Shown: piece by piece, positions 1,420 through 64,000 of the stretch | Layout: each line of letters begins with the position of its first letter | Position numbering within the stretch: the stretch's first letter is position 1 | Notes under the pieces: model-generated | Database searches by the model: none | What the model was told of the DNA's origin: nothing | The model's input: the letters and a program-made list of their open reading frames with translations, nothing else | DNA from: a virus | Direction: 5' to 3' (one strand) | Length of the DNA stretch: 64,000 nt | Virus record (IMG/VR): IMGVR_UViG_3300031227_000023 | Coordinates: 1 to 64,000 of that record | Program-made: the position numbers and the translations under genes

Positions 1420-2418
1420 TTATTCATTTGGCTTCCAGAAGGCAGGGAATTGTTCAATGCGTTCCCCGTTCAACACATTGCCAGCACGCTTTTTTCCCAC
1501 TTTCACATACCGGACACCACCAACCTGTTCCACATATGAACTGCGCCCGGCAATAGCTTCACCTTCACCAATATCATAAACCGGACCCCACGCACCCCAC
1601 TGTTTGAAATACGCAGGCACCGGACCACCCCAAAATTCACGCTGCGCTTCATTAACCACAGCCTGCAACCAATCCTTCTGCATGATCCGGGCTTTGTTCC
1701 CTGATTCCCCGCCAACAACGATCCAATCAAGCAGCCGCTTCATGTGGCCAAACCGCAACAGGCCCAACAGCGGTTCAACACTGACCCACCGTTTGTATGC
1801 AGGGATTGATTCAAGCCAATAAACACGTTTATCAAACTGTGCCTGATTTTCAGCGGTGATCCCAACCCACACGTTGCGCAACGGCCACACCTGCCCCAAC
1901 TCCCCACAACAGCCCCACCCTGCCCGCAGCTTGGCCTGTGACGCCTGCGGCAACATGGCAACATACCTGCGCCCTGCATGCTCCAACGCTTCAAAGGAAC
2001 CGCGTTCTGTTCCGTCCAACCCTGCGGTCAAAATCCTGCGCATCGAACGCAACAACTGCCCCGGCCTCTTGGTAAGCACCAAATACGTGTGCTGTGGAGT
2101 TGCCGCCATCACCTGCCACATTGCAGCAACCATTTCATAGGGCATGTCTTTGTGCCCGATGTCGCCCATGGAAATGGGAAACACTAAATGCGGCTTTGTC
2201 CAATACAGCGGTTCATCTAACCGTTCCGGGTGCAGGGTGAAATCAAACGGTGCCTGCTTGTCATACCCCTTCACCCCCATTGCTGCCAGCCGCTTGGCCA
2301 TCCGTTCTGCCCAACAGTTTGCACACGCAGGGCTGATCTCGTCGCACCCATGCGCTGTGTTCCACGTCGCACCGACATACCCAGCCTTCTGCAACCATTC
2401 AATCTTGCTTCTGCCCAT
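1420..2418 (-). CDS. Phage Gp37/Gp68-type protein (DUF5131 family), 332 aa
   Basis: Matches the widespread phage/plasmid Gp37_Gp68 (DUF5131) family by its N-terminus, MGRSKIEWL followed by a [19 protein letters not shown] segment. The three closely spaced cysteines (C-x6-C-x2-C) resemble an iron-sulfur binding loop. Further family-like parts are the [10 protein letters not shown] region, the [13 protein letters not shown] motif and the [17 protein letters not shown] motif. The family's biochemical role is not established; the cysteine motif suggests a radical-SAM-like fold. I choose ATG 2418 over an ATG ten codons upstream because it has the near-perfect site GGGAGGTG six bases before it. It overlaps the preceding gene by 20 bases. 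Confidence 0.8.
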
Positions 2419-2878
2419 TGTCTTCACCTCCCACAATTGGTCTGTCATTTAAATCTTCATCGTACCGTTCGTGAATATCACTACACGTGCGACTTTCAAT
2501 TTGCCGGATACGTTCACGAGTAACTGCTATACTGTCACCAACAGCTTCAAGAGTTTCCCCGCCACCGTCGCAAACATCCAACGCACAGCACCGGACCAAT
2601 TCCCACGGCATCAGTTCCGGGTGGTTGTATACGATGTGGCCGGTGGGGTTCACGTCCAAATACAAGTGCCACTTGCACCCCACCCACGGGCACATGTCGG
2701 GCTTCTGCCCATAAGGCACTTCACATTCCCCGCGTGTCTGTGGTCTGATCTGATCGAGCAGCGGCAACAATTCCTGCACTTCAGGGTCTTCCTTCAAACT
2801 ATCAGCCCAACGGTTCAATTCCTGCCGCAACAGGGCACGCTTCTTTTTTGGTCGTTTGCGTCTGCCCGTCACAGTCAT
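2399..2878 (-). CDS. Sigma-70 region-4-like DNA-binding protein, 159 aa
   Basis: Small protein with a basic N-terminus ([10 protein letters not shown]), a cysteine-containing middle ([18 protein letters not shown], later [11 protein letters not shown]) and a C-terminal helix-turn-helix. The [25 protein letters not shown], reads like sigma-factor region 4, which contacts the -35 element. Proteins of this layout occur in phages and are usually annotated as sigma-like DNA-binding proteins. It may redirect host RNA polymerase to phage promoters; this is inferred from the motif only. The ATG at 2878 is chosen for its GGGGGTGAA site. A longer frame runs upstream but overlaps the neighbouring gene throughout. 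Confidence 0.7.
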
Positions 2879-2879
2879 T

Positions 2880-3335
2880 TCACCCCCGCGCCCTTCCGGT
2901 CTTGTCGAGAATATCACTGTCATCTGACCGCACCATTTCCCCTGCGATAAAATGCCGCATGCTGTCTGCAAGCGCAGGCAACGGTTCTTTGCCATCACCC
3001 ATCCGCACCTTCCCCCCGCCTTCCTGCGCCACAAATACCATCATCATGGAACAGATCCGCACCCACAACCGCTGTTCAAATTCTGCCTTGCTTTCCCCTG
3101 CATTACACACAGACTGCCAACCACCGTTGTGAAATCCCATGTGGCACCCGTGACACATTGGCACCACCTGAAAATCATGTGATTTGGTGGACACCCCCCG
3201 GCTGCCGTGGTGGTGAAGTTCAGTGGTGCCCCTGTCACAGATCACGCACGTACGCATTTCAGATTTCAACCACTTCAAATACAAGCTGCACTTCTGCCGC
3301 TTTTCTAGCTTGGGTATTGGTGGCCCGCCTGTCAT
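2880..3335 (-). CDS. HNH/Ref-like nuclease-type protein, 151 aa
   Basis: The central region has CVICDRG, then [17 protein letters not shown], then [15 protein letters not shown]. This is a CxxC...HH-x-G...D...CxxCH...H arrangement typical of zinc-stabilised HNH (beta-beta-alpha metal) nucleases and of the P1 Ref / DUF968 group. Such proteins cut DNA during phage recombination or act as recombinase helpers. Its position next to the resolvase, primase and Sak4-like recombination genes fits. The N-terminus ([28 protein letters not shown]) is also seen in Ref-like proteins. The start overlaps the upstream stop (ATGA). Confidence 0.65.
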
Positions 3336-4000
3336 GCCAGCCCCACTTCCACAACACCGCCTTCTGCCATGCGCACGCCAAGCTGCATGGCCTGCTGCAA
3401 CACATCATCAGCACCAACCGGAACCGTTGCCACCCCTTCTTCTTCAAGCACCTGCGGCCCTGTCTGATACTGATACCCAAAAAATAATTCATCACGCCCT
3501 TCCACACGCCACGTGAACCGGCACGCACGCACAACCGGATCTTCCTTGTGTTCATGCGCATGGTACAAGGCACCCCACAAATTCAATTCACGCGCCGGGT
3601 CTTCATCACCGCTTTCCACAGACCCAAGATAATTGTTGACAACGTATTGCAGCCCACGCGGCAGATCCCACCCGAACATCTGCGCATATTCACTGGCAAG
3701 ACCAACAGCAACAAGTGCCATCCAATCACGCCACGCATCAGACGTGATCCGTTCCCCAACAATTGCATCCCCAATAACAGGGTGCTGCAACACCCCCTTC
3801 ATTGATTCCATGGCACCCTGCCACAACTGATCACCCAACCGGTGCAAGTGTGTCCTGAAATGCACAGCCCATTGGCCCTGATCAACACTGGCCAAATCCA
3901 TCTTCACAGAACCGGGAACAACCACCCCCAGGAACCGTTCAGGAAACGCTTCATGAATTCCCCTTGCTGCCCTTATCAAGTCTGCCTGTTCCATTGTCAT
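3332..4000 (-). CDS. Unknown protein, 222 aa
   Basis: I do not recognise this protein. It is a mostly helical, soluble sequence with no clear motif. The middle (QHPVIGDAIVGERITSDAWRDWMALVAVGLASEYAQMFGWDL) looks like a buried helical hairpin, and the C-terminus is rich in valine and glycine. I prefer ATG 4000 over a GTG at 4009 because it forms a 4-base ATGA overlap with the small membrane-protein gene upstream, implying translational coupling. It belongs to the leftward replication/recombination operon. Confidence 0.7.
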   Translation of the reverse strand: MTMEQADLIRAARGIHEAFPERFLGVVVPGSVKMDLASVDQGQWAVHFRTHLHRLGDQLWQGAMESMKGVLQHPVIGDAIVGERITSDAWRDWMALVAVGLASEYAQMFGWDLPRGLQYVVNNYLGSVESGDEDPARELNLWGALYHAHEHKEDPVVRACRFTWRVEGRDELFFGYQYQTGPQVLEEEGVATVPVGADDVLQQAMQLGVRMAEGGVVEVGLA

Positions 4001-4134
4001 TGCCCGCACCCTTTCATCAGCAAAATTACAATCAATTCAACCACAGCGACGGCACCCGCACCGAACGCTGCTGCCCTGTACCATTTGGCCCGTTCCCGCC
4101 ATTTCAACGCAGGATCACGCCAAGTCTGCTTCAT
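3997..4134 (-). CDS. Small single-pass membrane protein, 45 aa
   Basis: Too short for routine gene finding but convincing in context. It begins MKQTWRDPALKWRERAKWYR, followed by one hydrophobic helix (AAAFGAGAVAVVELIVILLM) and a KGCGQ tail. It overlaps the upstream gene by 20 bases and ends in an ATGA overlap with the downstream gene, filling what would otherwise be a gap in a tightly packed operon. The positive-inside rule predicts a cytoplasmic N-terminus. Function unknown; small phage membrane proteins can act in host takeover or superinfection exclusion, but nothing here shows that. Confidence 0.6.
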   Translation of the reverse strand: MKQTWRDPALKWRERAKWYRAAAFGAGAVAVVELIVILLMKGCGQ

Positions 4135-4804
4135 GTCTGAACGCACGCACAACCGCCTTGTTTGCTGTAATCACGCCACGCGCCCGCACACCACCTGTTG
4201 TCAAAAACTTTTCCATCCACTCTTCATCGCACATGATCCATTCTGGATACACACGGGTTTCTTGATTGTTCATGTCAAACGCCAACCCATTCTTCCTGAT
4301 CTTCACAAGCCGTGGTGGCAACCCATCACCAACAACTTCCCCACCTTCCATTGCCCCGGCAATCTCCACCGGGTTGCCGATTGGATTCCAATTAAATGGC
4401 ATCCTGAAATAGTGCCCATCACGGTGCTGATCTTCAACGGTACGGACCACACCGCACGGGCCATAATCCAACCACCCGATCAGCACCCGCGCACCATTTG
4501 GTGCAGTGAAAACCGTGCGCTGCCGCTTCATTGAACTTGTTGCCATCTGAAACCCGATCCTTGTACACATTGGATTTGTATTCCAACCAAACCCATTCCC
4601 GTTGTTGATACTATCCCACAAAGTTTTATACTCTGCAAGATTGCCCATGCCTTCCAGTAGGGCTTCACCATCAGTCATGCCTTCCAGCATTGTTGCATCT
4701 AAGCAAATCAAATCCAGCCAATACGCAGCAGGCACACGTTGGCCGGAGTAAATGACATCCCCTTGCCCAGACTTAACAGCGGCAACACACCACGCATTAG
4801 TCAC
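4115..4804 (-). CDS. Unknown protein, about 229 aa
   Basis: No family recognised. The protein is soluble, with many aromatic and glycine residues (NGFGWNTNPMCTRIGFQ, HYFRMPFNWNPIGNP) and an acidic stretch before the C-terminus (PEWIMCDEEWMEKFL). The start is uncertain: I use GTG 4804, which overlaps the upstream stop by a few bases after a GGGG sequence. A TTG at 4822 is the other possibility. It sits in the early operon between the RuvC-like resolvase and the small membrane protein. Confidence 0.6.
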   Translation of the reverse strand: MTNAWCVAAVKSGQGDVIYSGQRVPAAYWLDLICLDATMLEGMTDGEALLEGMGNLAEYKTLWDSINNGNGFGWNTNPMCTRIGFQMATSSMKRQRTVFTAPNGARVLIGWLDYGPCGVVRTVEDQHRDGHYFRMPFNWNPIGNPVEIAGAMEGGEVVGDGLPPRLVKIRKNGLAFDMNNQETRVYPEWIMCDEEWMEKFLTTGGVRARGVITANKAVVRAFRHEADLA

Positions 4805-5516
4805 CCCCCGGCAAAGTTGCAAGCGGCAACTGCGCTTGCCGTTCCTGTTGTTCCCGCCTCATGCCAATGATTATTGTCTGCACCCCGTGCCCCTTATCCA
4901 GCAACTTCGCATCCCAAGCCATGTTGCCAGCATCAGCAACACCGCTGTGGTTATTCTTACATTTGCCCGGCTTCAGGTTCAACCCCGGCAGCAACGCCTT
5001 TGCCCCTGCAATGCTGCGTTCCTTCGGATCTTTGTGCTTGAAAAATTGGGCAAGCACTTCCTTTTGCCAAGCCTTGGGATTCTTCAGATGCACAGTGACA
5101 CCGCCCTGCAAAAACGCAAGCATGGCAAATGCTGCTTCCCACAACGCCTGACTGCGCCCGATGGCATATGAACTTGTGATGCCCTTGCGTGCAAACATCA
5201 ATTCTTTTTTCGGATCTATCTCCCTGCGTGGCACAGCAGGCTGCCCCTTTTCCATCACCACAACGATCCGATCAGCCAACCCACACACGCGGCTTGCAAG
5301 TTCTGCCATCAAGATCAGATCAAACACCACCTGCCTTGTTTCCCCCTTGAACATCCCACGTGATGCTTCCAGTGTGGTGGGCTTCCGTTGTTTTTTCACA
5401 ATCTTGGTTGGCATCCGTTCAGCAAGCAGCACGTTGCCATCCTTATCAATGACAACAACGGCACCATCTGTTCCGATGTCCACCCCAACGTATGCAACCT
5501 TGATATTGTTTCCCAT
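4797..5516 (-). CDS. RuvC-like Holliday-junction resolvase, 239 aa
   Basis: The sequence has the acidic landmarks of the RNase-H-fold RuvC nucleases: VGVDIGTDGAVVVID near residue 10 (first Asp), IVVVMEKGQ near 90 (Glu) and HSGVADAGNMAW near 190 (Asp pair). These would bind two Mg2+ ions to cut four-way DNA junctions, resolving replication or recombination branches before packaging. The insert between the second and third motifs (KKELMFARKGITSSYAIGRSQALWEA) is typical of phage RuvC relatives. ATG 5516 is chosen for the GGGGTGAAT site before it. It follows the helicase-methyltransferase gene and precedes unknown early genes. Confidence 0.8.
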   Translation of the reverse strand: MGNNIKVAYVGVDIGTDGAVVVIDKDGNVLLAERMPTKIVKKQRKPTTLEASRGMFKGETRQVVFDLILMAELASRVCGLADRIVVVMEKGQPAVPRREIDPKKELMFARKGITSSYAIGRSQALWEAAFAMLAFLQGGVTVHLKNPKAWQKEVLAQFFKHKDPKERSIAGAKALLPGLNLKPGKCKNNHSGVADAGNMAWDAKLLDKGHGVQTIIIGMRREQQERQAQLPLATLPGGD

Positions 5517-5558: not shown

Positions 5559-8087
5559 TTATTCACTTTCCACCTCGTCATCCGTAGATTTGGGCCCGAA
5601 ATATGCCATCAGTTCCCTTGTGCTCTGGCGCATACTCTCTACTTCCTCATCACTACCAACCCAGTCTTTGGATTCATCGTCTTTGCTGTCTTCTTTTGTT
5701 TCTGGATCATCCGTCAAGGTGTCGAAAATGCTCGCCTGATCTCCACTCGTTGACGCCTCTTGAAGATTGATACACGCACGGTCAAAATACGAATCCTTCA
5801 ATTCGATTCCAACAAACCGCCTTCCTTGCTTCAATGCCCCGTACCCTTCGGAACCGATCCCAGCGAACGGGGAGAAAACCAAGTCATTCTCGTTTGTCCA
5901 CATGTGAACCGCCCGCTCGATCACGTCGAGTTGCAACGGACACACATGCTTCTCGTCTTTCTCATCCCGTCCGAGTGCTCTGTTCAACACGTTACCCTGC
6001 CTGATGTCCATCCACACCGGACTCGCGTACCGTTGCCACACCTTGATGCTGTACCCGCGCTTGTCCATGAGTCGGCGTGGCACATCGTCATCCTCGACCA
6101 GTTGCGTATCAAATCCGATGCTGTGCTTGCGAGTTTCGACTGCGGAGTGCTTACTCGGCTCATCTTCTCCAACATAATGATCGAACCTTGCCGTATTGGA
6201 TTCGCCACACACGGGGGACACCACTTCGGCGCATCCGTCCAAGTCATCACGCTTACGGAAAACCACGAGGTGATCAGGGTTGCCTTGCCTGCTAATTGTT
6301 GAATCCTTGCACACCTGCTTATGGAGCAACCCGATTGTTTTTGTCCGTTGCATCTCGACAACCGGGTCTTTCCAGATAACAACCTCGGAATGGAACACAA
6401 ACCCGGCATCCCCGAATGCGCGGATAATGTCACCGCGAAAATCATACAGCCCTGTGAATCCCGTCTTGTACTTGAACAGCGGGATATTGATACAATGCAC
6501 AGCGACCAATCGGCCCGGACGGGTGACGCGCAAGAGTTCTGGAATCAGCATAGAGAAGTGCTCGAAGAACTTCTCATCGCTGGCGCTGTTCCCCATGTCC
6601 CTTGCGCTGTTGCTGTACACGTACAACTGGGAGAACGGCGGGGAAAAGATCGTGAAGTCAACCGAGTTATCCACGACCTTCTTTGTTTCCTCGATGCAGT
6701 CCCCTTTTATCATCTCCCACCCGTTGCCGGTGATAGTCTGCTGATCATAATCCAAGGCCAATCCCCTTTCTCCTGTGATTCCAAATTGGAAGTTTTCGTA
6801 CATACTGCGGCCCATCTCGTCATGCTTCGCGGCCTTGACCATTACGTTGTCGTATATCTGTTGTTCGGCCTCTGACATCACTGTATGGACGTGAACCTCA
6901 TGCTCTTGACCAAACCGCCAGTTACGGCGAACGGCTTGGTAATACGCCTCATACGAGTATGACATCCCGATGAAAGCGGCTTGATGACAGTGCTGCCAGT
7001 TCATGCCGAACCCAGCTATTTTGGGCTTTGTTATGAGCACCCGGAATTCACCGGCAACGAACCCCATCAACTTGGATTCTTTGATGTCCGGCCTGTCGTT
7101 TCCACGCACCTCGACAGCCTCTGGTATTGCCAACCGCAGCTCGTCGGCCTCGTAATTTGTATGGCACCACACCACCCACGATCCCGTTGAATCGTTAACG
7201 ATCCTTGCAACCTCTTGTGCCCTTGACGGAGCGGTCACTCGCATCACCTTGTGCACGGTTGTCGCTGATGCTGTCGGGCTGTAAAACATCTCGCCAATCT
7301 CAGAACCTAACGCTTCATAGTCGGCGCGAATGACGTGACGGTGCTGATGGAGTTTGGGCAAAACAAACCCATCGTCGGAGTGCCCAAGGTCGGAAGGCTG
7401 GCGAATGCACACCGCCCAACTGGAAACCCATGACCAAAACGGCTGCACCGCGTGGTGTTTGATTCTCCACACCGATGTCTGCCCGCTGTCATGTAAAAAC
7501 CACCGTGAGAGCATTTCGGTTCTGGGCATGATGCCAAGGAAATCGCTATGGTTCCCGAGTTCAACGTGATCGTTCGGCGCAGGCGTGGCCGTGCAACAAA
7601 GACGGAACGGAGTTTGATCAAAATAATCACAGAGCAACTGTTTTGTTTTGCCCATAAATGACTTCAGGATGCTCGATTCGTCGAGGACAACACCACCGAA
7701 CACGGACGGATCAAACTTCTCGATGCGCTCATAGTTTGTGATGTTGATCCCGGCCACAACTTCACTTCCATCACGAACCACTGAGCATTCGATTCCGAAC
7801 TTCTCGCCCTCGCGCTTCGTCTGTTGACTGACGGCCAGCGGTGCTAGGATCAAAACAGGCATCCCAGTGTATTCAACAACATGGCGAGCCCACTCAAGTT
7901 GCACAGGCGTCTTGCCAAGCCCACACTCCGCAAAAATCGCACACCGCCCCAACTTCAATGCCCACTGAACAATATCAACCTGGAACGGAAATAACATCTT
8001 GTTGATGCCATTCCTTTCAACATGGAATCCACTATCTTCCATGCGTTCCATTTTGTTCACCAAAAAATCTAAATACTTTTTGCCCAT
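5559..8087 (-). CDS. SNF2-type helicase fused to DNA methyltransferase, 842 aa
   Basis: The N-terminal half (about 30-430) is a superfamily-2 helicase: Walker A AECGLGKT (53-60), DEAD-like box LDESS, motif III CTATPAPND, and motif VI YYQAVRRNWRFGQ near 382-394. The C-terminal half (about 455-770) is a beta-class amino-methyltransferase: catalytic FSPPF (481-485) precedes the SAM-binding FSPFAGIGSEGYGAL (from 738), the order that defines the beta class. The acidic tail is disordered. The fusion suggests a DNA-translocating or remodelling methyltransferase that could protect phage DNA from restriction; the target base is unknown. ATG 8087 has a GGGGTGG site; ATG 8120 is an alternative. Codon choice looks different from the neighbours, suggesting recent acquisition. 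Confidence 0.85.
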   Translation of the reverse strand: MGKKYLDFLVNKMERMEDSGFHVERNGINKMLFPFQVDIVQWALKLGRCAIFAECGLGKTPVQLEWARHVVEYTGMPVLILAPLAVSQQTKREGEKFGIECSVVRDGSEVVAGINITNYERIEKFDPSVFGGVVLDESSILKSFMGKTKQLLCDYFDQTPFRLCCTATPAPNDHVELGNHSDFLGIMPRTEMLSRWFLHDSGQTSVWRIKHHAVQPFWSWVSSWAVCIRQPSDLGHSDDGFVLPKLHQHRHVIRADYEALGSEIGEMFYSPTASATTVHKVMRVTAPSRAQEVARIVNDSTGSWVVWCHTNYEADELRLAIPEAVEVRGNDRPDIKESKLMGFVAGEFRVLITKPKIAGFGMNWQHCHQAAFIGMSYSYEAYYQAVRRNWRFGQEHEVHVHTVMSEAEQQIYDNVMVKAAKHDEMGRSMYENFQFGITGERGLALDYDQQTITGNGWEMIKGDCIEETKKVVDNSVDFTIFSPPFSQLYVYSNSARDMGNSASDEKFFEHFSMLIPELLRVTRPGRLVAVHCINIPLFKYKTGFTGLYDFRGDIIRAFGDAGFVFHSEVVIWKDPVVEMQRTKTIGLLHKQVCKDSTISRQGNPDHLVVFRKRDDLDGCAEVVSPVCGESNTARFDHYVGEDEPSKHSAVETRKHSIGFDTQLVEDDDVPRRLMDKRGYSIKVWQRYASPVWMDIRQGNVLNRALGRDEKDEKHVCPLQLDVIERAVHMWTNENDLVFSPFAGIGSEGYGALKQGRRFVGIELKDSYFDRACINLQEASTSGDQASIFDTLTDDPETKEDSKDDESKDWVGSDEEVESMRQSTRELMAYFGPKSTDDEVESE

Positions 8088-61300: not shown

Positions 61301-64000
61301 TTACTTGTACGCGCCGGTGTTAATTGATCCCAGCACACGCGTGAAATGGTCAACGTCTTGCATCACCTTCCCCGCAGACTTCCCATCAAAATATTCCATG
61401 CCCATGGATGTCACTTCTGTTGCATCCAAATCCTTCACGCTTCCACCACGTGGCGTTTTCACAGTCCCTTCCCTGTAATACAACCTACCAACATAGTGGT
61501 CTGTGAATTCAGGATTACCCCGTTCGACTTTCACAACAATTTCATTCAACTTATATGCTTTGTTTCTTGTCAAATAACGCAGCGGGGTTTCCCCTCCTAC
61601 AAATCCATCAGCATCTACTTTGGCGCGCTGCCACAGGAACCACTGCCCATTCTTCAGTGAATCAGAATTGAGTTCATCAAAATGATGTCCATATTCGTGC
61701 AGGAACTTGCGCCGTACTTCTTCCTTTGACCACTCCGCATATTTCCGAACACGCACGTTTTTTGTTCCAATTGAAATAAACGCACGTTCATCAACCCCCT
61801 GGCTTGCTATTGATTTTGCAGACTCATAGAACGCCCCGCTTTTTGTTGGATCAACATCAACCCTGACAGCAGGCAACCGGCCACGAACAACACCACGACC
61901 GTACCGCGTCACATAATCATAAATCGCACACCCTTCTTCAATCCCATCACGAACAGGCTTTGGAATTTTTGACCATTGTGCATAAGCCCCGGCATCATCC
62001 AAAAACTGTGCTTTGATCCTGCCAAACAGCCGGGCTTGTTCAGGTATCGTTTCAACATACGCAAGGGATTTTTCTGCAATCTCACCAGCAACCTTGTGGT
62101 GCGCGACACTATCTAGTGCAAGAGTTCCGGAGGATTCCTTTCTAATCAAATCCTTCAATACCCACTCCCCACGCTTTCTGATCTGATCCACCCTGCCACT
62201 TTTCCTTGCCGACCCCCAACGCGCATCAACAGCCGGTGGCCTTGTACTTGACAACGGGCCAAGCACTTCATCACCACGCAAGCCTTCTTCAGGAACCAAC
62301 TGCCATGGCTGTTCATGCGGCTTCAACGGTGCAGGTACAGCAGGCTTGGGCACAGCAGCGGCAGTCCTGGCAGCAGCCGCACCCCCTGCCCATGGACCCA
62401 ACCCACCGGGCACCGCAGTCTGTATGGCCTTCTGATTGTAAATAACAGTGGTCCTGCATAGCGGGTGGTACGGTGGCAAACTCATGCCCAAATCACGCAT
62501 TTCCTTCACGGTGGAATACTGCGAAGCATACTTGCCCGCATCCCATGTTCCCGCACCCGGCTTTGTGACAGTCATGATACTGTTGAACTGCCCCTGTTTA
62601 TTCATCACCCCCCAGTCAGCACCCCGCCTGCGCACCCATGGCATTTCAAATTTAATATCTTCAGGATCAGCCAAGTTGTCAGTTGACGTTTGGTGTTCAT
62701 GCGCAACCTCAACATCTATTACTTTACCATGGATGTACCGGCAATTATGAACAACAACCCCTTCTGCAATGTATGTTGGGTCATCTTCCACTTCAAGGTT
62801 GTACACGTAACATGCACGCCGCACCTTGCGAACGGCAACAACCTTTTCTAGCCTAGTGCCCCTGCAATACTCTTCAACACTACGTTCTCCGGATTCCCTT
62901 GATTCAATTGCTCGCCCGTAATCCTGATCAGTTTCCACCCCATGCCTGCAATTGCTTGTTCTTTTCTTTCCGTCGCATCCTCCCTGAACCCTTCCCTGTG
63001 CCAATACTCCCCGTCCACCTCGATTGCGAGACCGTGCTCCGGTAGAAAGAAATCTACATTGAATCGGTCGACGGGCTTCTCTAGCTCGTAATTGATTCGA
63101 TTCTTTTCCAACACTTCCGCAACGATTTCTTCCAACCCCGTTGCCCCCTTCCCAATCAAAAGGCATCTGCGCGAACAATGCTGCCTCTTGACCACTTCCG
63201 ATTTCTTGATAACAAACTTTTTCCCGCACTCCTCGCACGTTATCGTTTCCCTTTGATCCTTCCACCGGCATGCCCGTGAACACGTAGTGCGGGTTTTCCC
63301 GGAAAAAAATTCCACTGGCTTTATTCTGAACTCCCCCCCACATACAACGCACCGCTTCACCAACAATGCCGGATTCAACCCCTTCCTTCCAGCTTCCACC
63401 CTGCACTGATCCGAACAATGCTTCATCTGCCCCCGTTTCACATAACACTGCCTTGCCGTGAATGCCTTGCCGCACCATTGACAAACCATTTCCACATTGT
63501 TCATCCGATATTTGTTGTAACAATCCGTGCCGCAATACTGAGCCCTGTTCCCCACCGCTTGAAACGTCTTTCCGCAACCCTTGCATTTCTTCTCTATAGA
63601 CAAGGCTGTCTCCTTTCCGCAATTCTCCAATAGGTCTCCATCCATCTGCGGTAAGGATACGATGTTTTTTTGTTGCAATCAAATGATTGCCGGACTGGAG
63701 TTGCACTTCAATCAACTCTTCATCAACAAATCTTTTCGATACAGCCAACACGTGCCTCAACACCCCTGATCCCGTCACGACAACATCACCCGCATCAATG
63801 CTGTCTATACGTTTTTCCCCTAACTCTGTTTTTACTTTTGTTTCGCCAGAAAAACACCATTCTGTGGTTCGTTCATCCATCACCGCATAGGCAATTACCT
63901 CTGTAATGCCCGCTTCCATGAAGCCGTGCAACTGCGCCCGTGAACGGGAACGCGCAACCAAGTTGTGCGCCACCACCGTCCAATAATTCTTCATCTGCTG
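61301..64000 (-). CDS. Minor head protein (Mu F/SPP1 gp7 type) with intein and zincin domain, partial
   Basis: The gene runs off the right edge. Extein core: ...YAVMDERTTEWC | CRYIHGKVIDVEVAH...PPYHPLCRTTVIYN, the D-x-RT-x3-C...HG and HP-x-CR landmarks of the SPP1 gp7/Mu F family. The intein interrupts just before the conserved Cys at the DERTTEW/CRYIHG junction. After the head domain (about residue 570) a second domain has FLHEYGHHFDEL (766-770) and later EVTSMGMEYF, an HExxH zinc-protease motif with a possible third ligand Glu. A protease on an ejected head protein could digest host targets after entry. The spliced protein would lack the 371 intein residues. Confidence 0.78.
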   Translation of the reverse strand, partial: QQMKNYWTVVAHNLVARSRSRAQLHGFMEAGITEVIAYAVMDERTTEWCFSGETKVKTELGEKRIDSIDAGDVVVTGSGVLRHVLAVSKRFVDEELIEVQLQSGNHLIATKKHRILTADGWRPIGELRKGDSLVYREEMQGLRKDVSSGGEQGSVLRHGLLQQISDEQCGNGLSMVRQGIHGKAVLCETGADEALFGSVQGGSWKEGVESGIVGEAVRCMWGGVQNKASGIFFRENPHYVFTGMPVEGSKGNDNVRGVREKVCYQEIGSGQEAALFAQMPFDWEGGNGVGRNRCGSVGKESNQLRAREARRPIQCRFLSTGARSRNRGGRGVLAQGRVQGGCDGKKRTSNCRHGVETDQDYGRAIESRESGERSVEEYCRGTRLEKVVAVRKVRRACYVYNLEVEDDPTYIAEGVVVHNCRYIHGKVIDVEVAHEHQTSTDNLADPEDIKFEMPWVRRRGADWGVMNKQGQFNSIMTVTKPGAGTWDAGKYASQYSTVKEMRDLGMSLPPYHPLCRTTVIYNQKAIQTAVPGGLGPWAGGAAAARTAAAVPKPAVPAPLKPHEQPWQLVPEEGLRGDEVLGPLSSTRPPAVDARWGSARKSGRVDQIRKRGEWVLKDLIRKESSGTLALDSVAHHKVAGEIAEKSLAYVETIPEQARLFGRIKAQFLDDAGAYAQWSKIPKPVRDGIEEGCAIYDYVTRYGRGVVRGRLPAVRVDVDPTKSGAFYESAKSIASQGVDERAFISIGTKNVRVRKYAEWSKEEVRRKFLHEYGHHFDELNSDSLKNGQWFLWQRAKVDADGFVGGETPLRYLTRNKAYKLNEIVVKVERGNPEFTDHYVGRLYYREGTVKTPRGGSVKDLDATEVTSMGMEYFDGKSAGKVMQDVDHFTRVLGSINTGAYK
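62744..63856 (-). other. Intein, 371 codons, inserted in minor head gene
   Basis: Starts at Cys (TGT 63854-63856) with CFSGETKVKTELGEKRIDSIDAGD (block A). Next is SGNHLIATKKHRILTADGWRPIGEL (block B, T-x-x-H type) near residue 102. It ends with ACYVYNLEVEDDPTYIAEGVVVHN (blocks F/G) before extein Cys. Splicing residues are Cys1, His in the B block, terminal His-Asn and +1 Cys, so all core residues are present. The N part covers about 90 residues and the C part about 35. The 250 residues between have the low-complexity look of a shadow frame yet contain no stop, because they overlie the endonuclease gene. Confidence 0.88.
62848..63603 (-). CDS. Nested homing endonuclease in the intein, +1 frame, 251 aa
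   Basis: Runs in the +1 frame relative to the intein. Start TTG 63603 has a perfect AAAGGAG (63610-63616) six bases upstream; the frame stays open further upstream to ATG 63645 and 63678, but those have poor sites. Four zinc-finger-like CxxC...C-x3-4-C units fill residues 5-140 (CKGCGKTF...CGTDCYN; CQWCGKAF...CSDQC; CVVCGGEF...CSRAC; CEECGKKF...CSRRC). The C-terminal domain has NVDFFLPEHGLAIEVDGEYWH...ATERKEQAIAGMGWKLIRI, close to the EDxHD/Vsr-like nuclease fold. It would cut intein-free alleles of the head gene, allowing the intein to spread. It fits exactly between the two splicing halves and stops at 62848. Confidence 0.82.
   Translation of the reverse strand: MSIEKKCKGCGKTFQAVGNRAQYCGTDCYNKYRMNNVEMVCQWCGKAFTARQCYVKRGQMKHCSDQCRVEAGRKGLNPALLVKRCVVCGGEFRIKPVEFFSGKTRTTCSRACRWKDQRETITCEECGKKFVIKKSEVVKRQHCSRRCLLIGKGATGLEEIVAEVLEKNRINYELEKPVDRFNVDFFLPEHGLAIEVDGEYWHREGFREDATERKEQAIAGMGWKLIRITGEQLNQGNPENVVLKSIAGALG

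Follow-up and report, generated by a model that had tools for sequence, protein, structure and literature searches.

How can a complete endonuclease gene lie within a phage structural gene without breaking it? We approach this question through a window of 64,000 nucleotides, positions 1 to 64,000 of the IMG/VR virus record IMGVR_UViG_3300031227_000023, which has 89,915 bases in full. On the minus strand, an ORF of 1210 codons runs from 64933 to 61301 in the parent record, partly beyond the window. It contains an intein, and within the intein, in the +1 frame, lies a second gene. A preliminary description of this DNA placed the intein at 62744-63856, open for 371 codons from Cys to HN, with about 250 of these codons overlying an independent +1-frame endonuclease gene that has an AAAGGAG-6-TTG start at 63603. 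These positions are correct: the Pfam and TIGR01443 matches agree with the former, and we confirmed the ORF (63603-62848) and its start signals in the sequence. The features are as follows.

63857..64000, extending to 64933 in the parent record, minus strand: N-extein of the putative MuF-type head protein (PHROG head-morphogenesis matches).
62744..63856, minus strand: intein, 371 codons, Cys1 to His370-Asn371, no stops (Pfam/NCBIfam matches, aligned splicing residues).
63566..63856, minus strand: N-terminal half of the HINT splicing domain, residues 1-97 (pLDDT >90 over residues 1-90; blocks A and B).
63610..63616, minus strand: Shine-Dalgarno AAAGGAG, 6 bases before the TTG, read as Lys-Gly-Asp in the intein frame (sequence).
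62848..63603, minus strand: endonuclease gene, +1 frame, 251 aa, TTG start to stop (ORF, homologue profile, fold).
63163..63585, minus strand: four zinc-finger-like CxxC...C(x3/4)C repeats, residues 7-147 (cysteine conservation).
62897..63565, minus strand: intein-frame linker, residues 98-320, free of stops (disorder predicted; amino acids under no clear constraint).
62851..63147, minus strand: predicted EDxHD/Vsr-like nuclease domain with EVDGEYWH, residues 153-251 (3r3p, Foldseek, MTES_1575).
62744..62896, minus strand: C-terminal half of the HINT splicing domain, residues 321-371 (TIGR01443 match, alignment, AlphaFold).
61301..62743, stop included, minus strand: C-extein of the putative MuF-type head protein, starting at the native Cys+1 (same Cys in intein-less homologues).

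Judged by sequence similarity, the interrupted gene is that of a MuF-type head protein. Its N-extein, intein and C-extein form a single open frame and are not split into separately translated halves. The window protein matches phrog_13868, and head-morphogenesis families weakly. The intein-less homologue L192 shares the match to phrog_13868 and has further ones to PHROG head-morphogenesis families and Phage_Mu_F (5.8e-7, above the gathering score). The insertion site reads ...DERTTxx|C-R-x-L-D-G..., and when the uninterrupted motif was searched for as a degenerate DNA pattern, 65 intein-less head-gene alleles with the native Cys+1 were recovered; protein scans using either a single protein or an alignment as the query gave no intein-less hosts. 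Empty sites are exact in L192 and L169, where the flanks join directly at the native Cys+1 codon. Compared with two of the intein-bearing relatives described below, L192 is 82% identical to the L041 exteins over 73 residues and L169 is 79% identical to L039. The same site also holds mini-inteins of 165 aa (L153) and 175 aa (L005), both without an endonuclease. As a side observation, the C-terminal part of the window head protein, within the C-extein, has an HExxH motif (HEYGHHFDE), and L192 has a weak match (0.022) to the putative metallopeptidase family DUF6782.

The insertion is a complete HINT intein, as indicated by its splicing residues, by the fold formed from its ends and by its in-frame position in a gene with empty alleles. 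The ends match Pfam Intein_splicing (5.5e-12) and NCBIfam TIGR01443 intein_Cterm (5.4e-8); between them, Pfam and NCBIfam recognise no domain in the intein frame. The splicing residues, on which the preliminary description had made its case depend, all align: C1, T62, H65, H370 and N371 are invariant among 14 inteins, and block B TxxH is present. In the AlphaFold model the two ends form the HINT domain with pLDDT >90, and residues 98-320 are nearly all below 50. The best Foldseek match of this model is the gp41-1 intein (5.7e-8). The head gene product would be expected to undergo protein splicing. An RNA intron (group I or II) is ruled out by the lack of any Rfam match up to E=1.

The nested gene, whose stop codon is at 62848-62850, had been read as encoding four zinc fingers and a nuclease domain, and this reading holds. 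Among 22 homologues, the cysteines of fingers 2-4 are invariant or nearly so, as are the putative catalytic-domain positions (E158, E195, D197 and H202 invariant, D184 nearly so). The window endonuclease matches MTES_1575 and DUF559, and Vsr weakly; MTES_1575 is matched by 22/22 homologues, and their profile matches PDB 3r3p, the catalytic domain of I-Bth0305I, at 8.5e-17. The endonuclease is modelled by AlphaFold with a mean pLDDT of 90, and the best Foldseek match of the nuclease model is the same catalytic domain (3.9e-6). The nested enzyme is thus, by profile and predicted fold, a four-zinc-finger nuclease of the I-Bth0305I (EDxHD/Vsr-like) type. It differs from I-Bth0305I in having an N-terminal zinc-finger array and a gene nested in an intein. 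Such a nuclease would cleave the intein-less allele at a specific site.

Is this layout peculiar to one contig? The preliminary description had proposed a search of metagenomes, and IMG/VR yielded eight further distinct and divergent elements (L002, L039, L040, L041, L103, L105, L107 and L108), found with the intein as the query and, separately, with the endonuclease; L104 appears to be a repeat of L105 and was left out of the nine. All nine share the insertion site, the kind of gene and the +1 frame of the endonuclease, have Cys+1 after the C-terminal HN, and have no intein-frame stop over the endonuclease. The open frames of the relatives are not due to ascertainment, because the endonuclease-based search asks for no open intein frame. 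The endonucleases are 39-46% identical to that of the window, except for L002 (76%), and in a tree that also includes antisense and free-standing homologues the nine nested ones form a single clade (support 95/94). A sequencing frameshift, which had been named as a possible artefact, is excluded by the eight other contigs with the same layout; moreover, both intein ends are in one frame. No isolated phage with the same-strand layout was present in the phage collection searched.

The openness of the intein frame is selected, as the preliminary description had supposed from its improbability. An intein-frame stop arises when an endonuclease codon ending in T is followed by a codon starting with AA, AG or GA. 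Across the nine endonuclease genes, T is found in the third position at 0/643 of these stop-risk boundaries, compared with 324/1650 of the other codons (Fisher 3e-51, a pooled P that is descriptive only, since the genes are related). The 21 other long ORFs of the window, taken as controls, show no such avoidance (840/2799 vs 2394/8884). Codon use at the other boundaries of the nine genes leads one to expect 14.2 stops, with P(0)=3e-8. When synonymous codons of the window gene were permuted, the mean was 13.4 intein-frame stops and the minimum 5 in 5000 permutations, against 0 observed, so that the shuffled controls never stayed open. Permutation means across the nine genes range from 4.4 to 14.1, and single members are significant on their own (P from <0.0002 to 0.0036). 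Where homologues are not placed in sense orientation under an intein frame, the same phase has 4-46 stops, and the third frame over the element is full of stops.

Two explanations of the open frame without this type of selection can be set against these data. The overlap is purine-rich on its coding strand, and base composition or codon bias could in principle have left the frame open. The chance of this is close to nil: permutations that preserve both codon use and the protein refute it, and T is avoided at one kind of boundary and used at the others within the same genes, with no counterpart in the controls. The other explanation is that the linker is itself a functional domain, both frames then coding for functional proteins. 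It can appeal to the nine open frames and to a marginal excess of intein-frame identity: between the window and L002 this identity over the overlap is 0.538, compared with 0.525 when the endonuclease is redrawn with synonymous codons (P=0.07), and the same comparison gives P=0.06 and 0.36 for two other pairs. Substitutions, however, point to the frame under constraint. When the window is compared with L002, differences at intein codon positions 1/2/3 are 0.17/0.16/0.39 in the N part of the intein and 0.06/0.06/0.50 in the C part, but over the overlap it is the endonuclease codons that show this periodicity (0.16/0.16/0.38). The linker is also predicted to be disordered, and most of it is missing from the same-site mini-inteins; we consider a functional linker domain very unlikely. 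Redrawn overlaps acquire stops, the probability of none being 0.04, 0.34 and 0.03 for the three pairs. As far as can be seen, the linker is filler under selection against stops and not a second functional protein, because substitutions track the endonuclease codons and the redrawn identities are similar to the observed one. Hence, the earlier claim that one stretch of DNA encodes both an intein linker and a separate endonuclease stands for a constrained endonuclease and a stop-free linker; constraint on the amino acids of the linker is not clear.

The position of the gene raises an additional question: how is it translated? In 8/9 members, a TTG start spans NTT|G in the conserved segment whose intein-frame translation is GDxL or similar, and a purine-rich Shine-Dalgarno, encoded by the preceding codons, lies a few bases upstream. 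The Gly codon of GDxL is GGA in 7/8 nested inteins vs 1/11 other inteins (p=0.0012, from a tally by eye in a small set of related sequences). The ninth member, L040, has an ATG start and a weaker ribosome site. These signals suggest that the endonuclease is probably produced by internal initiation. A +1 ribosomal frameshift from the intein frame could instead join N-extein, N-intein and endonuclease into a fusion protein in some rounds of translation, and in some members the open endonuclease frame does extend as far as 25 codons before the TTG. Yet it opens just 1 codon before the ATG in L040, and 4 and 5 codons before the TTG in L103 and L108, which therefore leave little room for frameshifting. 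Given, in addition, the recurrence of a well-placed Shine-Dalgarno and NTT|G start, we regard frameshifting as improbable.

In a related arrangement, the region between the intein ends encodes the endonuclease on the opposite strand. We found it at 13 loci (L034, L042, L043, L112, L116, L118-L122, L124, L126 and L128), with L111, L113, L114 and L154 looking like copies and kept outside this count. The endonuclease, which at the loci other than L043 is near locus position 5000 (near 2000 in L042), is always in the codon-aligned phase, and the genes are mostly MuF-like, judging from flanking motifs. At 12/13 loci no stop interrupts the intein frame over the endonuclease. The codons TTA, CTA and TCA are absent from the 11 counted endonucleases of open loci, for each of which 1-18 were predicted from neighbouring genes, several single cases not being significant alone. 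L043 has 14 intein-frame stops and an intact endonuclease, and the N and C halves of its intein (1905-5243, intein strand) are in separate open frames; this intein is perhaps decayed or split. L154, apparently a copy of L126, is the antisense form in a bacterium, Gordonibacillus kamchatkensis VKM B-2647. Related nucleases are also fused in frame within inteins (L018, L054 and L134). Two further loci deserve mention. In L045 (3729-5802), N-extein, N-intein and endonuclease share one frame up to a stop, and a different, short open frame that has an ATG at 5560 contains the C-intein. This could reflect a frameshift, a split or a damaged element. In L118 (112-2577, intein strand), two N-terminal intein matches within one open run of 1180 codons suggest two inteins in the same gene.

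Taken together, we think it very probable that the element is a mobile intein, that internal initiation at a +1-frame gene yields its homing enzyme, and that the linker is selected only against stops. Ribosomes on the head gene would read straight through the intein frame; the two intein ends would fold as a HINT domain and be excised along with the linker (an out-of-frame reading of the endonuclease gene), and the head protein would be made whole. A separate set of ribosomes would initiate within the intein, at the TTG preceded by the Shine-Dalgarno, and release a free zinc-finger EDxHD/Vsr-like nuclease. This nuclease would cut intein-less alleles, and repair would copy the whole element in. 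Any intein-frame stop would truncate the head protein, which is presumably needed, so that the endonuclease would be limited to codons that leave the frame open and the amino acids of the linker would drift. We infer splicing, internal initiation, the cleavage target, homing and head-protein essentiality from sequence, and assume in particular the need for this head protein. The sporadic presence of the element, its exact empty sites and its excess of identity over the exteins fit homing: the window and L002 are identical at 0.79 in the intein ends, 0.76 in the endonuclease and 0.48 in the exteins, and L105 and L108 at 0.91, 0.84 and 0.72, respectively. A faster-evolving head protein could explain part of this excess. 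Could the intein instead be a degenerate, non-splicing one, with the endonuclease gene parked in a dispensable head gene? The pairing of a broken intein frame with an intact endonuclease in L043, of the antisense group, is what such a state could look like. The invariant splicing residues, the intein codon periodicity retained in both splicing halves and the absence of stops from all nine members speak against it, and we give it very little credence.

How does this nested endonuclease compare with known systems? The best fold matches here are the gp41-1 intein, presumably one of the split inteins of the fractured-gene group, and I-Bth0305I. Fractured genes, as Dassa et al. reportedly described them in 2009, combine split inteins with a free endonuclease of the EDxHD type between the halves. 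The two folds fit the comparison made in the preliminary description, which rightly stressed that here the host gene is unbroken; the intein is unbroken too, and the endonuclease overlaps it and does not separate its halves. Canonical inteins of the PI-SceI type share with this element the HINT domain, an endonuclease between the halves and precise empty sites, but their endonucleases are described as in-frame fusions (PMC3943268), whereas here the endonuclease of 9/9 members lies in the +1 frame relative to the splicing domain. The ShiLan domain is closer in one respect: an open host frame lies over a complete out-of-frame zinc-finger HNH endonuclease gene, with a sporadic, homing-like distribution, and the authors found no intein (PMC11855218). 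It differs by the lack of a splicing domain and of a detectable ribosome-binding site, by its HNH nuclease and by its host gene; in the present element the host frame encodes a complete HINT intein, and both Shine-Dalgarno and start are conserved. We found no description of an out-of-frame endonuclease inside a complete intein in the literature searched. Precedents may be held by Gorbalenya 1998, on non-canonical inteins, and by the preprint of Gosselin et al. 2025, both cited in PMC11855218 for overlapping frames in actinobacteriophages; as cited there, the preprint concerns actinobacteriophage inteins with non-canonical architecture.

Alongside in-frame fusions and fractured split inteins, mobile inteins are likely to have a third stable architecture, in which the endonuclease is encoded by an overlap. 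In the inteins of MuF-type head genes, a single zinc-finger EDxHD family would be maintained either in sense, in the +1 frame, or in codon-aligned antisense, and selection on the intein frame would act on stops alone. If so, the amount of enzyme is uncoupled from splicing, and split inteins could arise where stop avoidance is lost, a transition between whole and split forms that can be tested. The overlap shows how a free-standing endonuclease can inhabit a structural gene without breaking it, and it is a clear example from nature of a frame in which stop codons are all that selection acts against. Annotation tends to miss such endonucleases because they lie wholly inside another gene. Finally, related zinc-finger Vsr-like endonuclease ORFs are found in the mycobacteriophages KilKor (L097), Malithi (L098) and Seagreen (L101), where they are antisense to or between methyltransferase genes; the methylase gene is about 1 kb longer in KilKor than in Malithi.
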